A stretch of DNA of 37,383 nt. It comes from Candidatus Poribacteria bacterium. GTDB taxonomy: Bacteria > Poribacteria > WGA-4E > WGA-3G. Below, piece after piece: positions 15,159-26,425 of this stretch (its first letter is position 1; the number at the start of each line of letters is the position of its first letter). The translations under genes and the position numbers were made by a program. Below the pieces are notes generated by a model. That model saw only the letters and a list, made by a program, of their open reading frames with translations. It ran no database searches and was not told where the DNA came from. The stretch lies in assembly GCA_022822275.1 (NCBI GenBank), contig JAJEBZ010000203.1, positions 1 through 37,383 on the forward strand. Direction: 5' to 3'.

Positions 15159-15956
15159 CTATTGTTCTGTTAAAGCACGTAACCTTTCAATTTCTGCTAA
15201 AGCTTCTGCCAGATCAGATTCTAAATCTTTTCGTGCTACTGCTTCCTGTTCCGCGCGGTCCTCAGCGTCTTTCCGCGCAATCGCTTCCTGTTCCGCCCGA
15301 TCCTCAGCATCTTTCCGCGCAATTGCTTCCTGTTCCGCGCGGTCCTCAGCGTTCTCCGCGCGGTCCTCAGCAACATCAGCACGTTCAGTCGGAGTAGGCA
15401 ACCACTCTGACTTGAGCGGATCATACAAACGCAACTCACCAGCAACCTCGGCAAAATCTAATTCCAGCACCTTTGATGGCAAGCGACCATCAACAAATTC
15501 TATTTCTTCGTATTTTCCATCGATTAAGCGATACCCAACAAAACTCGAAACTATCTCACCTAACGGATCATAGATGAAATACTCCTTCACACCAAAGACT
15601 GACGCATATAACCTCTTCTTTTCTCCCAAGTCTTTAGAAATACTACTCGGACTCGCAACCTCTAACACAAAATCTGGAGTGTTCGCCTCCTTCCAAACCA
15701 AGTAAGTATTTCGGAATTTCTTTTCAACGCCAAACACAACAAAGACATCTGGGGAAATACTTTTCCGAGGATCACCTTCAACAAAATACACAAAAAGGTT
15801 ACCCGAAACATATACATCCGACCGAGCCTCAAAATGCCTTTCAAGGACCATAATCGTATTATTCATTACTTTTCTGTGTTTATCTGTTTCTGCCATCGGT
15901 TGACCATCTGATTCCGGATAGAATATCGCCGGCGCAGACAGTATCTTTTTCTGCAT
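15159..15956 (-). CDS. Uma2 family putative endonuclease with C-terminal repeat tail
   Basis: A 265-residue Uma2 (formerly DUF820) protein, a family with a PD-(D/E)XK restriction-endonuclease-like fold and mostly unknown role. Domain motifs are SPDVFVV (around 77-83), PDFVLEVASPSSISKDLGEKKRLY (split between core strand and helix, around 106-129) and GVKEYFIYDPLGE. After about residue 190 the protein carries three 14-residue repeats AEDRAEQEA(I/V)ARKD and a Glu/Arg/Leu-rich end, predicted to form a long charged helix or coiled coil. It has its own consensus promoter (16034-16062) and lies between prfB and lysS, so it looks like an insertion into that cluster. Confidence 0.85.
   Translation of the reverse strand: MQKKILSAPAIFYPESDGQPMAETDKHRKVMNNTIMVLERHFEARSDVYVSGNLFVYFVEGDPRKSISPDVFVVFGVEKKFRNTYLVWKEANTPDFVLEVASPSSISKDLGEKKRLYASVFGVKEYFIYDPLGEIVSSFVGYRLIDGKYEEIEFVDGRLPSKVLELDFAEVAGELRLYDPLKSEWLPTPTERADVAEDRAENAEDRAEQEAIARKDAEDRAEQEAIARKDAEDRAEQEAVARKDLESDLAEALAEIERLRALTEQ
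15225..15350 (-). repeat. 42-bp coding tandem repeat, three copies
   Basis: Three in-frame 42-bp units encode AEDRAEQEAIARKD, AEDRAEQEAIARKD and AEDRAEQEAVARKD in the tail of the Uma2 protein, preceded by a partial AEDRAEN. The DNA units are nearly identical (few synonymous changes such as GCGCGG/GCCCGA), which suggests recent expansion or ongoing copy-number variation. The segment is more GC-rich than its surroundings. Confidence 0.9.
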
Positions 15957-16103: not shown

Positions 16104-17489
16104 TTATTTCCGTTTCAAAGCTCCCCAAGTGAAGACCTTTTTACCAACTGGTGAAACACTAAGAGCATCTTCCGTCAAGGATTGCACACCCATACCCGCA
16201 GCTTTGCTACCGCGTTTCAGTCTATAGTCACCATTGTTAGCATCTACAAATTTCGGGTCAACATCAATGATGTCTTCAAATGTATGTCTATCACCTTCGG
16301 GACCACGATCTATACTATCAATACCATCACGAATATTACATCTCCGGACAGTAGCAATGGGTCCACTTACATATAACTCAGGATGTGATGTTTGCTTGGA
16401 ACTATTACCCCATACAATAGAATCTGTTAGTTTAAACGTAGTGCCACCTAAAAAGGCATTAATGCCACCTCCCTCACCATCTGCTGAATTTTGTGTTATT
16501 GTGCAATACTCCACTAAAACCTCACCAAAAGATGAATCAACTTGAATACCTCCACCAGTATCATACGCAGTATTTTCGGCAATCACACAATCAGATACAT
16601 TAGTTCTTGCAGTTGGACTCGAATAAATCCCTCCACCATATTCCGCAGTATTTCGTGTAATATACGAATCAGTAACATACAATACGGAATGTTCTGCACA
16701 TTCTAAACCGCCGCCCATATTTTCAGATATAAGACAATTTACTACATGCGTACCAGCAAGGGAGAACGAAGTACATACGACACCACGACCTTTGTTTCTT
16801 AACACTTCTGAATCTCTAACTGTTAGACTTACTTGATGATAACAGTATATTCCTGCACCACTATTGTCAGAAACAACACATTTACTCAGAGTCGGTTGAT
16901 AATATGATGATCTAACCGAATAATCAACTTTTCCTTCAAAGTAAACACCACTCCCATAAGATTCCGAACTATTATTTGAGATGGTACTATCCATTACTGT
17001 CATCTCAGAATTAAAACCATAGACACCTCCACCATAACCTGTAAATTTTCCATCCTTTACTGCCCTGTTCTGAGTGATTACACAGTTCTTTATGGTCGGA
17101 GACGCATCGTTACAATATATCCCACCCCCAAAAGAATGACGACCATTCATAATCGTGAACCCATCCAATTCTGCGTCTGTTGTCTCTCCATTCTCGAATA
17201 TAAACCCGCTCGTCAATGGAGTTCTTTCACAGTCTATAATTGTCAATGCTGCCCCGTTTGCTGATTTAACAGTGATTTCTTTCCCCTTAAAATCTATATT
17301 CACATTTCCGTTACCCTTGTAAGTACCACTTTCCACAAGAACAGTATCTCCATCCGCTGCAGCATCAATCCCAGATTGAATAGTCGGTTGATCATTAGGA
17401 ACAACGATTGTCGCCGCATCCAACGGAATATTCACAAGTAATATACTAATAATAACCACCATGTAAACGTAGAACCTATAACGATCCAT
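16104..17489 (-). CDS. Secreted right-handed parallel beta-helix repeat protein
   Basis: A 461-residue secreted protein. A signal peptide covers about 1-26 (FYVYMVVIISILLVNIPLDA). The mature part opens with IVVPNDQPTIQSGIDAAADGDTV (start of a pectate-lyase-like or DUF1565-type helix) and continues with repeated coils such as GGGIYCNDASPTIKNCVI, GGGIYSSPTARTNVSDCVI and GGGIQVDSSFGEVLVEYCTI. No catalytic residues can be named, so polysaccharide binding or surface structure is as likely as lyase activity. The tail VSPVGKKVFTWGALKRK resembles the tails of the three LamG proteins. The start at 17489 was chosen because the upstream TTG at 17501 forms part of its GGAGG ribosome site. It lies 22 bp after prfB. 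Confidence 0.85.
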   Translation of the reverse strand: MDRYRFYVYMVVIISILLVNIPLDAATIVVPNDQPTIQSGIDAAADGDTVLVESGTYKGNGNVNIDFKGKEITVKSANGAALTIIDCERTPLTSGFIFENGETTDAELDGFTIMNGRHSFGGGIYCNDASPTIKNCVITQNRAVKDGKFTGYGGGVYGFNSEMTVMDSTISNNSSESYGSGVYFEGKVDYSVRSSYYQPTLSKCVVSDNSGAGIYCYHQVSLTVRDSEVLRNKGRGVVCTSFSLAGTHVVNCLISENMGGGLECAEHSVLYVTDSYITRNTAEYGGGIYSSPTARTNVSDCVIAENTAYDTGGGIQVDSSFGEVLVEYCTITQNSADGEGGGINAFLGGTTFKLTDSIVWGNSSKQTSHPELYVSGPIATVRRCNIRDGIDSIDRGPEGDRHTFEDIIDVDPKFVDANNGDYRLKRGSKAAGMGVQSLTEDALSVSPVGKKVFTWGALKRK

Positions 17490-17511
17490 GTTTTCCTCCA
17501 ATCTAAGCTTA

Positions 17512-18619
17512 TCATTTAGTTTCTGTAGGTTTCATCTTCAAAAAACTCTCAATAAACACATCAATTTCACCATTCAAGACAGCATCAACATTGCCAGTTT
17601 CAACATTAGTTCTGGTATCCTTCACGCGTTGGTACGGATGTAATACATAAGAACGGATTTGGCTGCCGAAGTCTATATCTCGTCTCTCAGGCTGAAGTTT
17701 AGCAAGTTCTTCCTCCTGCTGCGCCCTAAAATGATTGTATAAACGCGAACGAAGTACCTTCATAGCAGTCTCACGATTTCTGTGTTGTGAACGCTCATTT
17801 TGGCATTGAACCGTAATGTTCGTCGGCAAATGTGTAATACGAACCGCAGAATCTGTCACATTGACATGCTGACCACCCGCACCACTCGCACGATAGCAAT
17901 CAATCCGAAGATCTTCAGCATTGATCTCTATCTCAACACTATCGTCAATTTCAGGCGTAACTTTCACCGCAGCAAAAGATGTATGCCTGCGTTTGTTATA
18001 GTCAAACGGGGAAAGCCGCACAAGCCGATGAACACCGGATTCTGCCTTCAGGTAACCATAGGCAAGTGGACCTTTCACCAAAAAAGTCGCACCTTTGATA
18101 CCTGCTTCATCACCTGCAGTCAGATCAACGACCTCAGTCGTATAACCGCGCTGGTCACACCAACGCAGATACATACGCATCAACATGCCAGCCCAATCCT
18201 GCGCATCAACGCCACCCGCACCCGGATGAATGCTCAGAATCGCACTGTTCTCATCAAACTCACCATCCAGCATAATTTGGAGTTCAAGCTTCTCAAACTT
18301 CTTATTAACAACTGATAAACCGTTCTGAATCTCTGTCTCTAAACTCGGTTCATCTTCTTCAATACCAAGTTCAAGTAACGTCTGTAGATCATCAATTGCA
18401 CTGCTTAACTTGTCATATTCTCCGATTTCCTCTTTCAGAACAGAGATACGCTGATGTACAGTTTGGATTCGCTGAGAGTTACCCCAAAAACCTGTAGACA
18501 TCGCTTCTTTTTCAAGTTCTTCTAATTCCTTCTGTTTCGTCGGAAGGTCAAAGATACCCCCGAAGCTCATGAAGCCTCGTAGTAACTAAATCGACTTCCG
18601 GCTTTAAATCTGTTAACAT
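17512..18619 (-). CDS. prfB: Peptide chain release factor 2, with programmed +1 frameshift
   Basis: Terminates translation at UGA and UAA. The gene is in two frames. The zero frame starts at 18619 (ribosome site AGGAG) and encodes 23 residues, MLTDLKPEVDLVTTRLHELR then GYL, ending at an in-frame TGA (18550-18548). A +1 shift that skips T18550 continues as DLPTKQKELEELEKE to 17512, giving about 368 residues, close to E. coli RF2 (365). RF2 hallmarks are the anticodon-mimic SPF in VRLSPFDYNKRR and the GGQ motif in SGAGGQHVNVTDSA. A continuous frame from an ATG at 18570 exists but lacks the conserved N-terminus. The start is 11 bp from the lnt stop. Confidence 0.96.
18547..18562 (-). promoter_or_regulatory. 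RF2 autoregulatory +1 frameshift site
   Basis: Minus strand reads CGG GGG TAT CTT TGA C. This has the Shine-Dalgarno-like GGGGG, the slippery CTT codon and the TGA-C stop context of the classical prfB site. Low RF2 slows termination at TGA and allows tRNA-Leu to slip +1, completing RF2 synthesis. Spacing and bases match the E. coli arrangement almost exactly. Confidence 0.95.
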
Positions 18620-18629
18620 TGATCTCCTC

Positions 18630-20198
18630 TTATTCTGCAGGGTCAGTTAGTTTGACGATATAATAATGGTTCAACAGCCGATAAACAATCCAAGATATAC
18701 AAATAACAAAACAAAGTATCGGCAACCAATCACCAAAACGTGTATATATTGTTTTTTTCTTATCAGATAATTCCACATTCGCAACCAAGTGTTCTTCTGT
18801 CGTCCCAGGTGTCACAAACCCAGTCGTTATCCGACCGATTCTATCAACCGCACATGAGTAACCACCATTTGCACACCTAAACACAGCAATCCGATTCTCT
18901 ACAGCACGAAACGGTGCCATCGCCAAATGCAATTCAGGAAACGCAGTACCAGAAAACCATGCATCGTTCGTTAGAATACCCATCATATCTGCTCCCTTTC
19001 TAACAAACTGACGGAAATGATCCGGAAAGGCTGACTCAAAGCATATTGATGTACCTACTTCTAACACCGTTTCATTAACTTCTGAAATAGGCAGGACTTC
19101 AATAGTTTTTCCATGTGCATAAGGTCGAAATTGAATGAAATTCGGTAGAAAATCGCCCAGCGGAACATATTCTCCAAAAGGCACCAACTTCATCTTAGCA
19201 TACTTACCAACAATCTTCCCTTCTGAAGACATTGAAACCACACGGTTATATAAATCTCCCATCACATCAAGATCTGTCGCACCAATCAGCATTGGTAACT
19301 TGCCAATATTTTGATGCATACGCTCAAAATACTTGTGGTATCCTTCCAACTCTCCCGATAATATCTGACCACTTACTGCTGTCTCGGGCCAAACAATTAT
19401 ATCTGGACCTTCACCCGCAACTTGCTCTGTCAGATTCAGATACTTTGAGAATATCTTAGGAAAACTATCCTGTTTCCATTTCTCAAGTTGTGAAATGTTA
19501 CCGGGAACAAGGGCAACCTTTACCGCATTTCCCGATGCAGCTTGTCCTTTACCAATCACGACATAACCGTATACAAGCGTTGCTATAGCGAGAATACAAG
19601 GGACAGCAAATGCAATGATCTCCTTACGTAAAGCGTGTCTATTCCGAATAAATGTAACAATGCCAGCGTTAAAAAACACGATCACAAAACTCACACCATA
19701 GACACCTGTGAGTGATGCAATCTGAATACCTGGTAAATAGTTCCACTGTGAATACCCCATGAAACCCCACGGAAAACCAGTAAGTAACCAACCGCGCACC
19801 CATTCTAAACTCACCCAAACTACAGCAACACTTGTCGGATATAATATCCCCGATTGCCACGACATCCGATGCACAAACAACGCAAATACTGCAATATAGA
19901 GTGCTGTATAACCAACTAATAGCAGGTATCCAAGAGCTGTCGTAAAGATGTTTGCATAAGGATAAAGAAGTGCAATGGCAATTAACAAAACAGCGAAAAA
20001 TACCAGCCCTGATACATAACCTATACGAAACGCTGCCTTCCAATCCTCAGCACACTCAAGTGCTAACAGCAAAGGAACTAAGCTCACCCATGCAAATGGA
20101 AAGAAATTAATACTGGGAAAACTACAGAACAATAATACCCCAGAACCTACTGCAAGCAAATATCTATAGCGTTTAATGAGATTCAAAATGTCTTCCAC
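18630..20198 (-). CDS. lnt: Apolipoprotein N-acyltransferase
   Basis: Adds the third acyl chain to the N-terminal cysteine of lipoproteins in the inner membrane. The 522-residue protein has about six N-terminal membrane segments (10-190), then a periplasmic nitrilase-type domain, then a C-terminal membrane segment (LPILCFVICISWIVYRLL). The catalytic triad is visible: Glu272 in VWPETAVSG, Lys335 in GKYAKMKLVPFGEYVPL, and Cys386 in GTSICFES. Length matches E. coli Lnt (512). It has a good promoter (20223-20251), and the following prfB begins 11 bp after its stop, so the two are probably one transcript. Its presence fits the lol genes and the lipoprotein found elsewhere in the window. Confidence 0.95.
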   Translation of the reverse strand: MEDILNLIKRYRYLLAVGSGVLLFCSFPSINFFPFAWVSLVPLLLALECAEDWKAAFRIGYVSGLVFFAVLLIAIALLYPYANIFTTALGYLLLVGYTALYIAVFALFVHRMSWQSGILYPTSVAVVWVSLEWVRGWLLTGFPWGFMGYSQWNYLPGIQIASLTGVYGVSFVIVFFNAGIVTFIRNRHALRKEIIAFAVPCILAIATLVYGYVVIGKGQAASGNAVKVALVPGNISQLEKWKQDSFPKIFSKYLNLTEQVAGEGPDIIVWPETAVSGQILSGELEGYHKYFERMHQNIGKLPMLIGATDLDVMGDLYNRVVSMSSEGKIVGKYAKMKLVPFGEYVPLGDFLPNFIQFRPYAHGKTIEVLPISEVNETVLEVGTSICFESAFPDHFRQFVRKGADMMGILTNDAWFSGTAFPELHLAMAPFRAVENRIAVFRCANGGYSCAVDRIGRITTGFVTPGTTEEHLVANVELSDKKKTIYTRFGDWLPILCFVICISWIVYRLLNHYYIVKLTDPAE

Positions 20199-20222
20199 TG
20201 GAAAGATGTAAATGATGAAAAT

Positions 20223-20251
20223 ATACTAACACATCATTCCTCTCATGTCAA
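20223..20251 (-). promoter_or_regulatory. Sigma-70-type promoter of lnt-prfB
   Basis: Minus strand: perfect -35 TTGACA (20251-20246), 17-bp spacer, and TAGTAT (20228-20223; 4 of 6 to consensus). It is 25 bp before the lnt ATG, so the leader would be short. Confidence 0.6.
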
Positions 20252-20341
20252 CCTAATTGTTAAACAGACCAGAGGCATTCAATCAAGGCAAAAAAACGTG
20301 ATTTACACAAAACGCGTAACTTCAGAATCACGGATGACACA

Positions 20342-20368
20342 GATTACGCGGATTACGCGGATTACGCG
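20342..20368. repeat. 9-bp tandem repeat in the lnt / ABC permease divergent gap
   Basis: Three exact copies of GATTACGCG. Nearby, GATAAGAC (about 20369) and GTCTTATC (about 20440) form a wider inverted pair. The rest of the 358-bp divergent intergenic region (20199-20556) shows only the two candidate promoters and no gene. Confidence 0.85.
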
Positions 20369-20485
20369 GATAAGACCTTTATATCAAGTCGTATACCATA
20401 GATAATGCATATCCTGAGCAAAACATCAAATAGCAGAAGTCTTATCCCGATGAATGCCAAAAGACATTCATATCAAAGAATTATA

Positions 20486-20514
20486 TTGACTATTAATCAG
20501 TTGTACTCTAATTT
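20486..20514 (+). promoter_or_regulatory. Candidate promoter of the MacB-type permease
   Basis: TTGACT (20486-20491), 17-bp spacer, TAATTT (20509-20514), about 43 bp before the chosen start codon. The -35 matches 5 of 6, the -10 is weaker. Confidence 0.45.
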
Positions 20515-20556
20515 GGTACAATACAATTTTTGTTCAACTCTATTTGGAGAGACAAC

Positions 20557-21858
20557 ATGCGAATAATTGAAGGATTACTTGTAGGTATATCTGCAATTCG
20601 TTCTAATAAAATGCGTTCCTTACTGACGATGCTTGGAATTATCATCGGTGTGGCTTCCGTGCTTGCAATGATCTCCATTGGAGATGGGGCAAAAGAGATT
20701 GTGTTGCGCGACGCACAAAAACTTGGCGGTGCAAACCAATTCACTATCTACCGAACTTGGTACAAACAGGTAGGAACACGATGGGTAAGAATCCGTAGTA
20801 ATGAATATATGGACTACGATGACGTAAAAGCAATTGAAGCAGAATGTCCAACAGTGAAGGCAGTAACCCCACGGATACCTGAATGGAGAGGGGCTTTAGT
20901 CCAAGCTGCTGGTGGTGCAGAAGCACGCGCAGGCTATAACGGTGTTGATGCTACATACAATACCGCTATGGATTGGAAAATGCAGGAAGGTAGATTTATA
21001 ACAGACGAAGATGTTGAGAACGCAACGACTGTTTGTGTACTCGGGGCGGAGGTAGCAGTTGATCTGTTCGGGGAAAAATCACCGCTCGGAAAAGAGATCA
21101 AGATAGCAAGAGGAGATGGACGCTATGACCGTTGGGGACGTAGAGACAGTTCACGAACTACCGAACGTTTTACTGTGGTTGGCACAATGACTCCACGCGG
21201 GAGAAGTCTACGTTTTGGATGGAGCTATGACGGGCTTGTCTTTATGCCAGTCACCACCACTCAAGAACGGTTTACAGGGAATGATAGAATACAAGATGTT
21301 GTCGTTTATGCAAATACCGTTGAAGATGTACCAAAGGCAATAGAAGAAGTAAAAGCTGTTATTCGTAAACGACATAGAAACCGAGATGGCTTCATCAGAG
21401 TCTTTGATATGCGCGAAGGGATGGCACAACTGGAAAAAATTAGCAAGATGATTAAAATTGCATTAGGGAGTATTGCCGGGTTTTCTCTACTTGTTGGCGG
21501 TATCGGCATAATGAACATGATGCTTGTAGCAGTGACTGAACGCACACGTGAGATTGGACTACGCAAAGCACTCGGCGCAACACGGTTAGACATCCTAATC
21601 CAATTTCTAATGGAATCCATTGTAATGTGTGGTTTAGGAGGATTGATAGGTATAGGCTTAGGGGTCTTTGCTGGGCAAGGTATGTCAATACTTGCAGTCA
21701 AAATTGCAAAGATCGTCCCTGAATGGCCCTCCATTGTTTCAACAAATTGGGTCTTGATTTCAATCTCATTTTCAGCGTTAATTGGTATCTCGTTTGGACT
21801 ATATCCAGCAATAAAAGCGTCATCTCTATCACCGATTGAAGCATTGCGTACAGAATAA
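20557..21858 (+). CDS. MacB-type ABC transporter permease
   Basis: A 433-residue inner-membrane permease. The N-terminus MRIIEGLLVGISAIRSNKMRSLLTMLGIIIGVASVLAMISIGDGA contains the first membrane segment and the MacB_PCD start (a long signature, quoted here only by its ends: MRIIEGLLVG and MISIGDGA). A large periplasmic domain follows (about 45-290), then an FtsX domain with three segments (FSLLVGGIGIMNMMLVAV, TREIGLRKALGAT, and the end FGLYPAIKASSLSPIEALRTE). The start at 20557 has GGAGAG 7 bp upstream; the open frame begins earlier at 20530 without such support. No ATPase or periplasmic adaptor gene lies next to it, so its partner must be encoded elsewhere. Export of a macrolide-like compound, peptide or lipoprotein cannot be distinguished. 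Confidence 0.85.
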   Translation: MRIIEGLLVGISAIRSNKMRSLLTMLGIIIGVASVLAMISIGDGAKEIVLRDAQKLGGANQFTIYRTWYKQVGTRWVRIRSNEYMDYDDVKAIEAECPTVKAVTPRIPEWRGALVQAAGGAEARAGYNGVDATYNTAMDWKMQEGRFITDEDVENATTVCVLGAEVAVDLFGEKSPLGKEIKIARGDGRYDRWGRRDSSRTTERFTVVGTMTPRGRSLRFGWSYDGLVFMPVTTTQERFTGNDRIQDVVVYANTVEDVPKAIEEVKAVIRKRHRNRDGFIRVFDMREGMAQLEKISKMIKIALGSIAGFSLLVGGIGIMNMMLVAVTERTREIGLRKALGATRLDILIQFLMESIVMCGLGGLIGIGLGVFAGQGMSILAVKIAKIVPEWPSIVSTNWVLISISFSALIGISFGLYPAIKASSLSPIEALRTE

Positions 21859-21907
21859 ACAACTTTATGAACTATCTACTTTCTGAATTATAACAACGGA
21901 GAACTCT

Positions 21908-21988
21908 ATGCAACGATTGGATATTCTACACCCATCTATTGATGATTACTTACTTGATATAATTCCGGAACGCGATGAAATGGTCTGA
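21908..21988 (+). pseudogene. Decayed O-methyltransferase N-terminus (26 codons)
   Basis: A 26-codon frame with a good ribosome site (GGAG before ATG) encodes MQRLDILHPSIDDYL followed by LDIIPERDEMV and a TGA. The pattern of a short N-terminal helix, Y-L-x-x-(I/L)-x-P-x-R-D resembles the start of family 3 (caffeoyl-CoA type) O-methyltransferases. The expected continuation is missing, and the next gene starts 43 bp later. It is most likely a remnant left after a deletion; a genuine small peptide is the alternative. Confidence 0.45.
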
Positions 21989-22031
21989 CGTATCAGGCGT
22001 AGTGAAAAACTAATTATGAGGATTATTACAC

Positions 22032-22295
22032 ATGACTACGATGAAATGTCCCAGATGCAGTTCTGAAAAAATCATGCCTAACTTACAAATTAGAGATCGA
22101 GCTGAATCCTTATTATTTGACGAAGACTTAGAAGTTGTGGTAGATAGTAAACCAAGTGCAGTATTCTTCAAGGGAACTCATTACGAAGCTTTGAGAGCAA
22201 CGGTCTGCGGTGAATGCGGATACGTTAGTCTTTCAGTGAAAAATCCTAAAGCATTATGGAATGCCTATTCACAAAAAAAGGATGATAAGGACTAA
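22032..22295 (+). CDS. Small zinc-ribbon protein
   Basis: An 87-residue protein with two cysteine knuckles, KCPRCSSEK (Cys at about 6 and 9) and VCGECGYVSL (Cys at about 58 and 61), predicted to bind one zinc. Between them is a segment of hydrophobic strands and an acidic stretch (LLFDEDLEVVVD). No other domain is recognised and the function is unknown. The start at 22032 has GAGG about 10 bp upstream. Its stop is 3 bp before the following dioxygenase gene, so the two are probably co-transcribed. Confidence 0.75.
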   Translation: MTTMKCPRCSSEKIMPNLQIRDRAESLLFDEDLEVVVDSKPSAVFFKGTHYEALRATVCGECGYVSLSVKNPKALWNAYSQKKDDKD

Positions 22296-22298
22296 AAA

Positions 22299-23132
22299 AT
22301 GCCAATACTAACACAAGCACATCATGATCATTTTGATGAATTCGGTTACATGGTTGTTGAAGATGCAGTTCCAATTGACCTGTGTGAAGCGGTTGTTGAC
22401 GGGATATTCTCGTTCTTGGAAATGGACCCATCTAACCCAAATGGCTGGTATCGCGCTCCACATAAACCTGGTGCCGGCATGGTAGAAATGTATTTTCATC
22501 AAGCTATGTGGAACGTCTATCAACATCCCCCGATATATCAGATTTACAAGGAAGTTTATGGGACAGAAAGAATCTGGGTTCACATAGACAGAGTCAACAT
22601 GAAACCACCAAAACACCCCGACCATCCTGATTGGGACCATTTAGGGATGTATCATTGGGACGCGGACACTTCAAAACTGCCGGTAAAGTTTCAAACACAA
22701 GGTGTTCTATTCTTGAGAGATACCTTAGATAATCAAGGTTCTTTTGTATGTTGGCCCGGTGCACACAAGTCACTGCTTGACAAAGAGAATCCGTGGGTCC
22801 CAGAACTTACACCGCAGGTATATAGGGAAAAATTCATACAGGTACCAGCGAAGGCAGGCTCGCTCCTTATCTGGCATATTGCACTTCCACATGGCAATGG
22901 ACGCAATACCTCCGACAAACCGAGATTAGCACAATACATGAACTATTATCCCGCACCAAACCCAATGAATGAAAAGAAACGTCAGGAACGAATTACATTG
23001 TGGAAAGAACGAAGAGCGTTAGGGCACGGTCCTTATCCCGGTGATCCAAGGGGATGGGAAGCGAAAAACTACGGATCACCGGAATTAACACCGTTAGGAA
23101 GAAAGTTGTTAGGACTTGATCTCTGGGATTAA
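22299..23132 (+). CDS. Phytanoyl-CoA dioxygenase (PhyH) family protein
   Basis: A 277-residue Fe(II)/2-oxoglutarate-dependent oxygenase of the PhyH family, which hydroxylates diverse small molecules. Family features: N-terminal FDEFGYMVVEDAVP, the HxD iron ligands in MYHWDADTS (His119, Asp121), the distal His198 in ALPHGNGRN and the 2-oxoglutarate-binding Arg209 in SDKPRLAQYMNYYP. The substrate cannot be predicted; PhyH paralogues are numerous in some uncultured marine lineages. Its stop codon overlaps the stop of the convergent LamG gene by 4 bp (TTAA shared), leaving no room for a terminator between them. Confidence 0.9.
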   Translation: MPILTQAHHDHFDEFGYMVVEDAVPIDLCEAVVDGIFSFLEMDPSNPNGWYRAPHKPGAGMVEMYFHQAMWNVYQHPPIYQIYKEVYGTERIWVHIDRVNMKPPKHPDHPDWDHLGMYHWDADTSKLPVKFQTQGVLFLRDTLDNQGSFVCWPGAHKSLLDKENPWVPELTPQVYREKFIQVPAKAGSLLIWHIALPHGNGRNTSDKPRLAQYMNYYPAPNPMNEKKRQERITLWKERRALGHGPYPGDPRGWEAKNYGSPELTPLGRKLLGLDLWD

Positions 23133-23926
23133 TACTTTTTCATAAACGCCCAAGTAGTAGTCAATTTTTCTTGTGGGTCTACACCAAGTGCTGTTTGTAA
23201 ACCAGTATTGCGAATAGCATCTATCTGTTTCAGATCAAGGTCAACATTAAAGATTGCCACCTCATCAAGTGTGCCAAGCATGTGGACGTGGTTTGCTAAA
23301 GGAGCTCCTATATTAACCTCTTGCGTTGCATTATTGGTATTCGTATTGAATTCTGTTCCTTCTTTTGCCTGAAGAACACCATCAACATATAGATCATGAT
23401 CTTTCACAGCACTTGAACCTTTAGGAAAGACGACCGCACAATGATGCCATTCTCCATCACATACGTCATCTGTCCCAAAGTTATTTCCGCCATTGACTTC
23501 TACGCGTAAATTGCATTCGGTTCCTCTTACATGTGCCCGGATGTAGTATTTTTGTGTTGACGAATTTATACCCCATTTCACCCATGAATGTTCACGAACC
23601 GTTGAAGTCTTAAACCAAAACACTGTTGTTCGAGGGTCTGTTCCTCCGATACCTGTATAACCTGTAATTATTAAATTGTCATCGTTACCATCATATTCCA
23701 ATGCGTTTCCAAAAACACCTTTGACATAAGTCGCCCCAACAAGTTGACCATGGCGGTCATTCCCAGAAATATCTCTGACGACATCATTATCATTATCGAA
23801 AAGATAAGCCACCTCTAAGACTTCTTTCTCAATTGCTGCTGCATGGCTTAGACATGCAACTGACATGGAAACAATCATAACACTGATTAGTATTCCTAAA
23901 AATTTACTTTGAATGTTGAATTTCAT
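23129..23926 (-). CDS. Secreted LamG/concanavalin A-like domain protein, paralogue A
   Basis: A 265-residue secreted protein. The signal peptide is about 1-30 (FLGILISVMIVSMSVACLSHA). One LamG domain fills the rest: VAYLFDNDNDVVRDISGNDRHGQ, GNALEYDG, TVFWFKTS, CDGEWHHCAVVFPKG, HDLYVDGVLQ and LDEVAIFNVDL, patterns of the jelly-roll fold that binds glycans or proteins. It ends IRNTGLQTALGVDPQEKL then TTTWAFMKKY, a tail shared with its paralogues. The ribosome site AGGAGAG is 11 bp before the ATG. It follows paralogue B by 91 bp. The ligand is unknown. Confidence 0.88.
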   Translation of the reverse strand: MKFNIQSKFLGILISVMIVSMSVACLSHAAAIEKEVLEVAYLFDNDNDVVRDISGNDRHGQLVGATYVKGVFGNALEYDGNDDNLIITGYTGIGGTDPRTTVFWFKTSTVREHSWVKWGINSSTQKYYIRAHVRGTECNLRVEVNGGNNFGTDDVCDGEWHHCAVVFPKGSSAVKDHDLYVDGVLQAKEGTEFNTNTNNATQEVNIGAPLANHVHMLGTLDEVAIFNVDLDLKQIDAIRNTGLQTALGVDPQEKLTTTWAFMKKY

Positions 23927-24017
23927 TTATTTACTACTCTCCTAATAATCAGATACAATGTCTCATATACATAAAGTGACGTTTTCATTGTATGGTTGGT
24001 TTTAGCTACAGCGTTGT

Positions 24018-24821
24018 TTAATATGACTTAATTTCTGCCCAACTGGTTGCTAATTTTTCTATTGGGTCTACACTGAGTGCTGTTTGTAAACCAGTATTGC
24101 GTATAGCATTAATATCGTTCTGACTCAAGGCGACATTAAAAATGGCGACTTCGTCCATCAAGCCAGATAAAAATTTGTGACCAGTAAGTCTGGAACCAAT
24201 GTTTACCTGAACAAACTCACCGTTTGTATCCATCTCTTTGTCAGTTCCTTGTGGTGCATTTTGAAGTTTGCCATCCACATATAGTTCATGATCCTTTACG
24301 GAGTCTGAACCTTTTGGAAAGACGACTGCACAGTGATGCCATTCCCCATCGCAAACATCATCACTACCATAGCTCTGTCCCCCATTTACCTCAACTCTCA
24401 AGAAACACTGTTCTCCAGATGGATGTGCTCTTATGTAATATTTTCGTCCCCCAGCATTTTGTCCCCATTTCACCCATGAGTGATCAATTGCAGCATTTGC
24501 TTTAAACCAAAAAACCGTTGTTCTGGGTTCAGTACCTCCAACACCAGCATAGTCGCCTGTAACTATCATGTCATCAACGCCATCAAATTCCAGTGCCATA
24601 CCGAAAACGCCTTTAACATAAGTCGCCCCCGTGATGGTACCGTCGTGCCCGTTTTTTGATGAATCCATTGCTGTAGTGCCATCGCCTTCATCAAATAGAT
24701 ATGCAAACTCAATCGTGTCTATATCAATTCGGGCAGCATGACTGTAACCAATGACTAAAAAAGCTAACATGAACAAACTAATAGCAAGTATTCCGTATTT
24801 ACGCTGTTTCCAAGTTATCAT
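24018..24821 (-). CDS. Secreted LamG/concanavalin A-like domain protein, paralogue B
   Basis: A 267-residue paralogue with signal peptide about 1-29 (GILAISLFMLAFLVIGYSHA). The LamG domain is nearly identical in key stretches to A and C: FAYLFDEGDGTTAMDSSKNG, GMALEFDGVDD, CDGEWHHCAVVFPKGSDSV, HELYVDGKLQ and LMDEVAIFNVALS. The tail is SVDPIEKLATSWAEIKSY. The start at 24821 is chosen because it has GGAGG 5 bp upstream; the frame extends to a TTG at 24842 that lies just before that site. Probably made with paralogue A; the 91-bp gap between them shows no terminator. Confidence 0.88.
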   Translation of the reverse strand: MITWKQRKYGILAISLFMLAFLVIGYSHAARIDIDTIEFAYLFDEGDGTTAMDSSKNGHDGTITGATYVKGVFGMALEFDGVDDMIVTGDYAGVGGTEPRTTVFWFKANAAIDHSWVKWGQNAGGRKYYIRAHPSGEQCFLRVEVNGGQSYGSDDVCDGEWHHCAVVFPKGSDSVKDHELYVDGKLQNAPQGTDKEMDTNGEFVQVNIGSRLTGHKFLSGLMDEVAIFNVALSQNDINAIRNTGLQTALSVDPIEKLATSWAEIKSY

Positions 24822-25049
24822 ATTTTCCTCCAACAAAAACAATTGAGTATAACTCTCAACTTAAAGTACTATCGAAAACTTAAATTTTTACTTGTCATTT
24901 ATGCTTTTAGAATTATAGCATTATGGTGAATATATTGACATATCCAGGAAGACATTCTTTTTGAGTTACTGATTGCACTCAGTTATTAGTTCATATTGTC
25001 AATATGTCAAGAATTATAACAAATCAACATTAAAAAAGCAAGGGGTGTG
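24822..25049. other. A/T-rich intergenic region upstream of LamG paralogue B
   Basis: No gene or RNA is supported. ATATTGACATAT-like words occur near 24930-25010 as imperfect repeats. At 25042-25057 GGGGTGTGTAAAGTAC looks like the broken end of an element related to the one inserted next to it. Confidence 0.4.
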
Positions 25050-25057
25050 TAAAGTAC

Positions 25058-25366
25058 GGGCGTGTAAAGTTTTTGTACTAACTTCCCGCGAACTATTGTA
25101 GGGCAGGTGCTCTATGCCCCGCTACATGATTGTCAATTTATGGATTTTCATGTTATGATCTTCAGTCCCGTAGGGACGATATGTTTATAGCAGCATCTAC
25201 TCTCAGCGTCTTAGTCCCGTAGGGACGCTATGTTTATTTTCTATGTCGTTCCTACGGAACTCAAGAGAGGGGCAACATTGTTTCTATAAACATTGCGTCC
25301 CTAAGGGACTAAAGACACCCCCTACAAAACGAATTGTCTCTTTTGTACAAAGAATTTACACACCCG
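25058..25366. mobile_element. 309-bp non-autonomous insertion element with 8-bp target duplication
   Basis: Ends GGGCGTGTAAAGTTTTTG (from 25058) and, as reverse complement, GGGTGTGTAAATTCTTTG (from 25365) form imperfect terminal inverted repeats of about 20 bp, each followed by GTAC. The flanks are exact direct repeats TAAAGTAC at 25050-25057 and 25367-25374. Inside are several copies of the palindrome AGTCCCGTAGGGACG (about 25164, 25213) and its variants. No coding capacity. GTGTGTAAA-type ends with 8-bp duplications suggest mobilisation by an IS256/Mutator-type transposase, an inference. The half from about 25213 to 25366 is related, inverted, to 141-292. Confidence 0.8.
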
Positions 25367-25528
25367 TAAAGTACGAGTAATGTTTTAGAAAATGTGGGTA
25401 CAGCAATATCAGAGTAATAAACGGAAGAAAATGTCTGTTATGGAATCTTACTCTCTTTTTCAAATAAGTTCTTGACAGTTTAAAGTAGGACTGACAGATT
25501 AGGAACTATCAGTTATCAGTAGAAAAGC

Positions 25529-25554
25529 AGTGTGAAGCATAATTACTTCACACT
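25529..25554 (-). terminator. Hairpin downstream of LamG paralogue C, possible terminator
   Basis: A perfect 9-bp stem AGTGTGAAG / CTTCACACT with an 8-nt loop, about 70 bp after the paralogue C stop. On the minus strand it is followed by GCTTTTCT, a weak T-rich tail. It may end the LamG C transcript before the insertion element. The remaining spacer (25375-25624) has no gene. Confidence 0.45.
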
Positions 25555-25624
25555 ACTATAAAATTATTTGGTATGAGACCAGAATTTCGATACGTTTTCA
25601 AAAAACGGATATGCTTGTTTTTGA

Positions 25625-26425
25625 CTAATATTTCTTTATTCTTGCCCAGCTTGTGGCTAATTTGCCTTGCGGGTCAACACTCACGGTGGCATGCAAACCA
25701 TCCTCCATGATGGCATTGACCTGTTTTTCATCAATGGCAACGCTGAAGATGGCGAGTTCATCCATAAGTCCATATAAAAAATGATGTCCTGTCAGACGTG
25801 CCCCGACATTAATCTCTTGCGTTGCGCCATCTGTGTTCATATCTCTATCATTTCCTATTTTTTCTTGTAGTATGCCATCAACATAAAGGTGGAAATCTTG
25901 GACAGAATCAGCATCGTCTGGAAAGACAAGTACACAGTGATGCCATTCACCATCACACACATCAGTATTTCCATAATTTTGTCCGCCATTAACTTCAATT
26001 CTCAAGAAACACTGTTCTCCTGATGGGTGTGCTCGGACATAGTGTTTTTCTCCAGCTGCATTTCTACCCCATTTCACCCATGAATGCTGTCTTGTTTCAT
26101 TGGATTTAAACCAGAAGAGAATTGATCTGGGGTCTACGCCACCAATGCCAGTATAACCGGTTACTATCAGGTTGTCGTCTACTCCATCATACTGGAATGC
26201 AGTACCGAACACCCCTTCAGTATACTGTGCGCCAATTATAGCACCATCACGACCATTAGGTGAGGAATCTACAGCGACTTCCCCTTCTCCTTCATCAAAA
26301 AGATAGAGAACTTCAATATTCTCTTCATCAATTATACCTGCATGCACATAACTACACATTGACAAAATGATAACAATGATACCGAACTTTATAACACTTG
26401 AACCGCTTAGAATTTTTGAATGCAT
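25625..26425 (-). CDS. Secreted LamG/concanavalin A-like domain protein, paralogue C
   Basis: A 266-residue paralogue with signal peptide about 1-29 (FGIIVIILSMCSYVHA). LamG core: VLYLFDEGEGEVAVDSSPNG, GTAFQYDGVDDN, FWFKSNETRQHSWVKWG, CDGEWHHCVLVFPDD, FHLYVDGILQ and LMDELAIFSVAID. The tail is SVDPQGKLATSWARIKKY. The ribosome site GGAGG is 7 bp upstream of the ATG. It is separated from paralogue B by about 800 bp that include the 309-bp insertion element, so the three genes were probably a closer tandem before that insertion. Confidence 0.88.
   Translation of the reverse strand: MHSKILSGSSVIKFGIIVIILSMCSYVHAGIIDEENIEVLYLFDEGEGEVAVDSSPNGRDGAIIGAQYTEGVFGTAFQYDGVDDNLIVTGYTGIGGVDPRSILFWFKSNETRQHSWVKWGRNAAGEKHYVRAHPSGEQCFLRIEVNGGQNYGNTDVCDGEWHHCVLVFPDDADSVQDFHLYVDGILQEKIGNDRDMNTDGATQEINVGARLTGHHFLYGLMDELAIFSVAIDEKQVNAIMEDGLHATVSVDPQGKLATSWARIKKY

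Follow-up and report, generated by a model that had tools for sequence, protein, structure and literature searches.

LPXTG, PEP-CTERM and similar sortase tags are short C-terminal signals found on exported proteins of many folds, and they finish with a hydrophobic segment and basic residues. This report concerns an ending of another kind, a conserved linear peptide of about 17-22 residues at the C-termini of many predicted Sec-exported proteins with unrelated folds, conserved at the protein level. It was noticed in a 37,383-nucleotide stretch of DNA from a Candidatus Poribacteria bacterium (assembly GCA_022822275.1, contig JAJEBZ010000203.1), hereafter the window, which is contig C218 of the 4.53-Mb source genome (G000 in our numbering). 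Unlike PEP-CTERM and LPXTG signals, the tail has no hydrophobic segment, as an earlier note made from the DNA letters had said: its profile is polar apart from V, L, W and L/I, and 59 of 60 proteins that carry it show no additional membrane segment.

The closest described counterparts are sorting signals of the type IX secretion system (T9SS). The type A C-terminal domain (CTD; models TIGR04183 and PF18962) is, like the tail, C-terminal, follows unrelated exported domains and needs an N-terminal Sec signal, and it is present in the source genome alongside the tail. It is described as measuring about 70-100 residues, adopting an Ig-like fold and carrying motifs A-E; the tail is much shorter, as the earlier note had it, and lacks the GxY motif. 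The short CTDs of Prevotella intermedia are also reduced and numerous in the genome, and a paper on them (PMC11969387) gives 40-55 residues, three strands, and motifs B, D (GxY) and E as in long CTDs. Set against that description, the tail profile is without motifs B, D and E. Type B CTDs (TIGR04131, PF13585) are far longer than the tail, at 150-235 residues, and are read by dedicated barrel shuttles, PorP/SprF; they show one T9SS able to read several signals (PMC12618676). In the Porphyromonas protein HBP35, it is the last 22 residues of the CTD that a GFP fusion requires to be exported to the surface (PMC3120885), so a signal of the length of the tail is not unreasonable. Neither TIGR04183 and PF18962 nor PF13585 and TIGR04131 matched any of the 60 tail hosts analyzed below.

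Tail motif in the window and source genome

Four open reading frames (ORFs) of the window, all on the reverse strand and all encoding predicted exported proteins, were read directly and end as the earlier note had described. A right-handed beta-helix protein (PF13229; 16104-17489, 461 residues counted from the ATG chosen) ends in VSPVGKKVFTWGALKRK plus stop at 16104-16157. The other three match LamG (PF13385), so that the division into one beta-helix and three LamG hosts holds. They are a 265-residue protein at 23129-23926, with tail VDPQEKLTTTWAFMKKY plus stop at 23129-23182; a 274-residue protein at 24018-24842, with tail VDPIEKLATSWAEIKSY plus stop at 24018-24071, a segment with a predicted local distance difference test score (pLDDT) below 50, thus low confidence, in an AlphaFold2 model; and a 266-residue protein at 25625-26425, with tail VDPQGKLATSWARIKKY plus stop at 25625-25678. 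These four tails belong to a set far larger than was first observed.

The source genome was searched as DNA with a degenerate pattern, approximately K-x3-[TS]-W-x2-[ILMF]-K followed by 0-24 nt and a stop codon whose frame was not enforced, with the reversed pattern as control. Matches numbered 79 for TAA, 40 for TAG and 33 for TGA, against 12, 3 and 8 for the control; a single tail with several possible stops is counted repeatedly in these totals. A tighter pattern, with [GA] after W and TAA as the stop, gave 60 matches against 1. The abundance of the tail is far above chance expectation.

For protein-level analysis, 54 stretches fetched around pattern matches were combined with the window into a sample of 707,042 bases (about 0.7 Mb) with 519 complete genes, to which the results on hosts and export below also refer. 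Because the sample was picked around tail matches, the tail frequency in it does not equal the genome average. The strict motif V-x-[PA]-x-x-K-L-x-T-[TS]-W-[GA]-x-[LI]-K plus 1-6 residues, required to lie within 14 residues of the protein end, forms the in-frame terminus of 60 complete genes. There were 64 tail ORFs initially; the four outside the 60 (L104 +, the second of L105, L112 and L120) either ran off the end of a contig or dropped out in gene picking. Among 181,317 residues the looser core [TS]W[GA]x[ILVM]K turns up 61 times, every time C-terminally and never internally.

Counting from the Trp, the 60 hosts have V at -10 (95%, the others I), E/D at -9 (75%), P/A at -8 (77%/22%), G/D/E at -6 (82%), K at -5, L at -4 (75%), T/A at -3, T at -2 (82%) and T/S at -1. 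After it come G/A at +1 (75%/25%), any residue, L/I, K, and then 1-6 residues. Tails were selected on K, T/S, W, L/I/V/M and K, and the remaining positions are independent of that selection; several of these are conserved too, among them V at -10, P/A at -8 and G/A at +1. Synonymous codons are freely mixed at the fixed residues, so the tail is conserved as protein, and the idea that it is a DNA repeat was dropped. Relaxed endings such as KLTTIW and KLTTRW occur on nine more predicted exported proteins, which were scored as tail-less in the counts below, and on 1 of 349 non-exported genes.

One LamG tail gene of the source genome, L120:338-1479, is apparently split across two frames, by a frameshift or an assembly error.

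Host proteins and export

Export was called by a home-made heuristic (a signal peptide and no additional membrane segment), not by SignalP. By this measure 59 of the 60 tail genes encode predicted Sec-exported proteins, against 110 of 459 tail-less genes (Fisher p=2e-31); the same 59 show the N-terminal Sec signal that T9SS cargo carries. The sole tail gene without a signal peptide, L107, was retained in the counts, and it is the one strict-tail gene without predicted export. Stripped of signal peptide and tail, the hosts fall into 18 sequence-unrelated groups: one of 34, nine pairs and eight singles. The enrichment that the earlier note had asked for, on secreted proteins of unrelated folds and with little presence on others, is thus found.

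The group of 34 is that of the window LamG proteins, and Pfam assigns Laminin_G_3 to 34 of the 60 hosts and CBM9 to 3, with single or few matches to CBM_4_9, lamin-tail, beta-helix and others. Common descent alone, with LamG paralogues keeping an old ending and chance resemblance elsewhere, would account for this one cluster. It is already contradicted by the other 26 hosts in 17 further groups, the mixed codons, the related endings in other lineages and the lack of any internal occurrence, and we find it scarcely credible.

No C-terminal signal family appeared among the Pfam or NCBIfam matches of the 60 hosts, and in the window LamG proteins the NCBIfam matches terminate N-terminal of the tail. 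The tail is described by no Pfam or NCBIfam family and in no paper found by literature search; a search on the motif letters returned an unrelated match only, and one on Poribacteria, C-terminal and LamG returned nothing.

One LamG protein of the window was modelled with AlphaFold2 (26 sequences, mean pLDDT 83.3), which places tail residues 246-262 below pLDDT 50, with a helix drawn there at low confidence, whereas the rest of the LamG domain is mostly at 80-97. In this modelled protein the tail lies, at low confidence, outside the domain, and is not its regular last strand. The beta-helix host, modelled without an alignment, gave a poor model throughout (mean pLDDT 50.7), which was not used. 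In view of the non-LamG hosts, the 18 host groups and the LamG model, we rejected the idea that the tail forms part of LamG.

A structural or maturation element is a further alternative, in which the tail would pack on its own protein, an oligomer partner or a chaperone and serve folding rather than addressing. The conserved 11 residues have a strand-like hydrophobic period, with a moment at 160 degrees of 0.456 against 0.276 in shuffles (sd 0.018), though at 170 degrees just 0.305 against 0.273; such a period would fit a strand added to another sheet. A shared tail on 18 unrelated host groups and the low confidence beside the LamG domain speak against this role, which we consider unlikely. 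A helical amphipathic peptide was rejected, the moment at 100 degrees showing no excess (0.297 against 0.279).

The extreme C-terminal position on predicted exported proteins would also suit a turnover or quality-control tag for a periplasmic C-terminal protease. That a genome should encode a degradation tag for dozens of surface-type domains would nevertheless be hard to rationalise, and we give this explanation very little weight; a protease link was not among the searches made.

Judged from the sequences, the tail is almost certainly a real tag on exported proteins. The earlier note had suggested a short surface-attachment or processing tag, and the tag itself is borne out by the 59 of 60 hosts, the 18 groups and the non-LamG hosts; export and anchoring are predictions.

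Phylogenetic distribution

The tail pattern was found in 84 of 84 genomes of the phylum Poribacteria, with 1-99 matches each for TAA (control 0-3) and at least 8 in each when TAA or TGA was allowed. With a window LamG protein as query, 41 of 51 loci in named genomes were from Candidatus (or uncultured) Poribacteria. In 109 genomes of other phyla the K-x3-[TS]-W-[GA] form gave 0-3 matches per genome. Certain other lineages are enriched in a looser pattern, TWGx[VIL]K close to a stop: 18 matches in G276, 15 in G203, 12 in G255, 10 in G217 and 7 in G186. The 5 matches in G205 come from one place. The view of the tail as a poribacterial speciality was abandoned on account of this TWGxIK form in other lineages.

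Stretches from eleven other-lineage genomes contain 49 ORFs that finish with [TS]W[GSA]x[ILVM]K and no more than 8 further residues; the form is nearly always TWGxxKxx[FY], and the proteins are of diverse sequence. Among genes picked there, export is predicted for 32 of 43 with the tail and for 40 of 151 neighbours (p=2e-8). An NCBIfam scan of six of these hosts gave no match. Among the matches listed, at least 15 genomes from other lineages have the related ending TWGx[IVL]Kxx[FY] in frame. The tail-rich genome G291 showed 2 tails in 74 apparent exported genes over 398 kb sampled; the tail-poor G331 showed none in 49 over 400 kb, a G+C-rich genome in which many ORFs look wrong-frame.

A perfect poribacterial tail, KLTTTWGNIKAQ, ends a LamG protein in a record titled Planctomycetota (NIOZ-UU13; L181), a title that may be incorrect. 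In G153, a small genome of another phylum, KLTSTWGEIK and KLTSTWGELK are matched at C7:6901-6941 and C12:7611-7651, with the matched TGA out of frame, so that both are possibly internal.

Type IX secretion as a candidate route

A short C-terminal sorting signal linked to T9SS is the best single mechanism we can propose from sequence comparison, and we put it forward tentatively, at a level of confidence close to balanced. An N-terminal signal peptide would take the protein across the inner membrane; thereafter it might be released, held by a shuttle, or cut and attached by a PorU-like enzyme.

The components searched were SprA (TIGR04189), PorU (NF033707) and the PorV/PorQ family, with curated cut-offs of 200, 420 and 90 bits. 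SprA matched in 80 of 81 poribacterial genomes and 0 of 14 controls; PorU matched in 81 of 81, and in two controls as well. In the source genome the SprA-like gene is a 2155-residue ORF scoring 161 bits over 5 stretches, and the PorU-like gene scores 418.5 bits. Three PorV/PorQ-family proteins exceed 90 bits there: one, at 92.8 bits, is encoded directly after the PorU-like gene, and two, at 96.6 and 113.8 bits, lie in stretches also carrying tail genes. A domain without Pfam match is present in the tailed proteins L098 and L123 and also inside a 1064-residue protein whose terminus is a type A CTD (30% and 29% identity; within a set of 110 proteins, E 8e-9 and 2e-10).

The T9SS-like genes of the source genome lie on G000:C56 (L206:9178-15645), C138 (L213) and C186 (L214).

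Outside Poribacteria, SprA matches occur in 79 of 204 genomes. Of the at least 15 genomes with the in-frame ending among the matches listed (a listing outside which G203 and G162 fall), 14 of 15 are SprA-positive, at E 7e-52 or better. The comparison of 14/15 with 79/204 gives Fisher p=8e-6, uncorrected for kinship and with both tables seen together. Likewise, at least four tail matches are found in 8 of 79 SprA-positive genomes (one being G205) against 1 of 125 SprA-negative ones (G162), with p=0.0025 among related genomes.

Many weak SprA matches (profile about 600-655) fall in ORFs of about 800-1,600 residues and may represent another family; an E of 1e-3 alone is therefore no proof of SprA.

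A number of results weigh against the T9SS link. G116 has the ending and no SprA match, G162 with its 4 matches has none either, and the highest SprA scorers, G285 and G171, are without a tail match. The SprA cut-off is passed in 1 of 81 poribacterial genomes and that of PorU, as searched there, in 0 of 81. The tail has no motif in common with type A, type B or short CTDs, and at E up to 0.001 TIGR04183 matches 6 of the 110 predicted exported proteins that lack the tail; with type A CTDs in Poribacteria, a tail-independent T9SS route is likely there. A prediction written beforehand for the phylum of G276, that the tail-poor family f201 and genome G305 would be without SprA and tail-rich genomes would have it, failed. 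The nine f201 genomes hold 0-2 tail matches each and G305 none, and SprA is matched in 9 of 9 (eight at E about 1e-42 or better, G330 doubtful) and in G305. G297 (86% complete) shows 9 tail matches and none to SprA, and in G306 (17 tail matches, 82% complete) SprA is doubtful at E 6.5e-4; these two lowered our confidence slightly. SprA is found in 46 of 47 genomes of this phylum irrespective of tail, and PorU in 47 of 47, including f201, G305, G297 and G306. Both are nearly universal there, and nothing within that phylum connects the tail with SprA.

Across phyla, then, tail-bearing genomes tend to have the machinery; within the phylum of G276 there is no covariation. The earlier note had proposed to look for a co-occurring processing enzyme. 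A PorU-like gene with an adjoining PorV/PorQ-family gene was found, but PorU does not track the tail, being equally present in the tail-poor genomes of another phylum.

The principal rival is a sorting or anchoring tag for another envelope receptor, an outer-membrane or surface protein that co-occurs with SprA and is not part of T9SS. SprA and PorU in tail-poor f201, and SprA absent from the matches of G297 and uncertain in G306, both tail-bearing, fit such a receptor and mean that another gene may decide tail use; type A CTDs already occur in Poribacteria, and the tail is without CTD motifs. Against it stands strong SprA in 14 of 15 tail-bearing other-lineage genomes among the matches listed, and no alternative receptor turned up, though no search for one was made. 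We regard this explanation as possible, if doubtful. By analogy with type B CTDs in F. johnsoniae, a dedicated shuttle is one candidate for what decides tail use.

Returning to T9SS, a more specific proposal is one more class of signal, outside the phylum to which reviews assign T9SS: a linear peptide about 20 residues long, read by SprA and PorV-family shuttles on dozens of proteins per genome. Its form would be V-x-P-x-x-K-L-x-T-T-W-G-x-I-K in Poribacteria, and the other lineages would use TWGx[IVL]Kxx[FY][RK]. This we advance with more reserve, as something that may well not hold. T9SS is confined to Bacteroidota in a survey from 2016 and a review from 2023 (PMC4793230, PMC10202324), Kamke et al. 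in 2014 reported TIGR04183 domains in Poribacteria and no structural Por genes (PMC3909097), and two of the papers found on Poribacteria and type IX secretion report, in the parts available, no poribacterial T9SS. Against this literature on T9SS distribution, itself partly covered, the poribacterial SprA, PorU and PorV matches suggest that the Bacteroidota-only view needs another look. As a T9SS signal, the tail would have less than half the length of the shortest CTDs found described (40-55 residues), and recognition by SprA and shuttles would then be approachable with a short peptide. In any case, the tail flags dozens of predicted exported proteins per genome in a phylum of sponge symbionts, and others in several lineages.

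Other features of the window

A Uma2-type protein at 15159-15956 on the reverse strand has a C-terminal series of AEDRAEQEA-like repeat segments. The release factor 2 ORF (prfB, 17512-18570), as listed, is without its true N-terminus. At 18500-18660 on the reverse strand, an ATG 5' of this ORF opens a frame ending CTT TGA C, which resembles the classical programmed +1 frameshift site.

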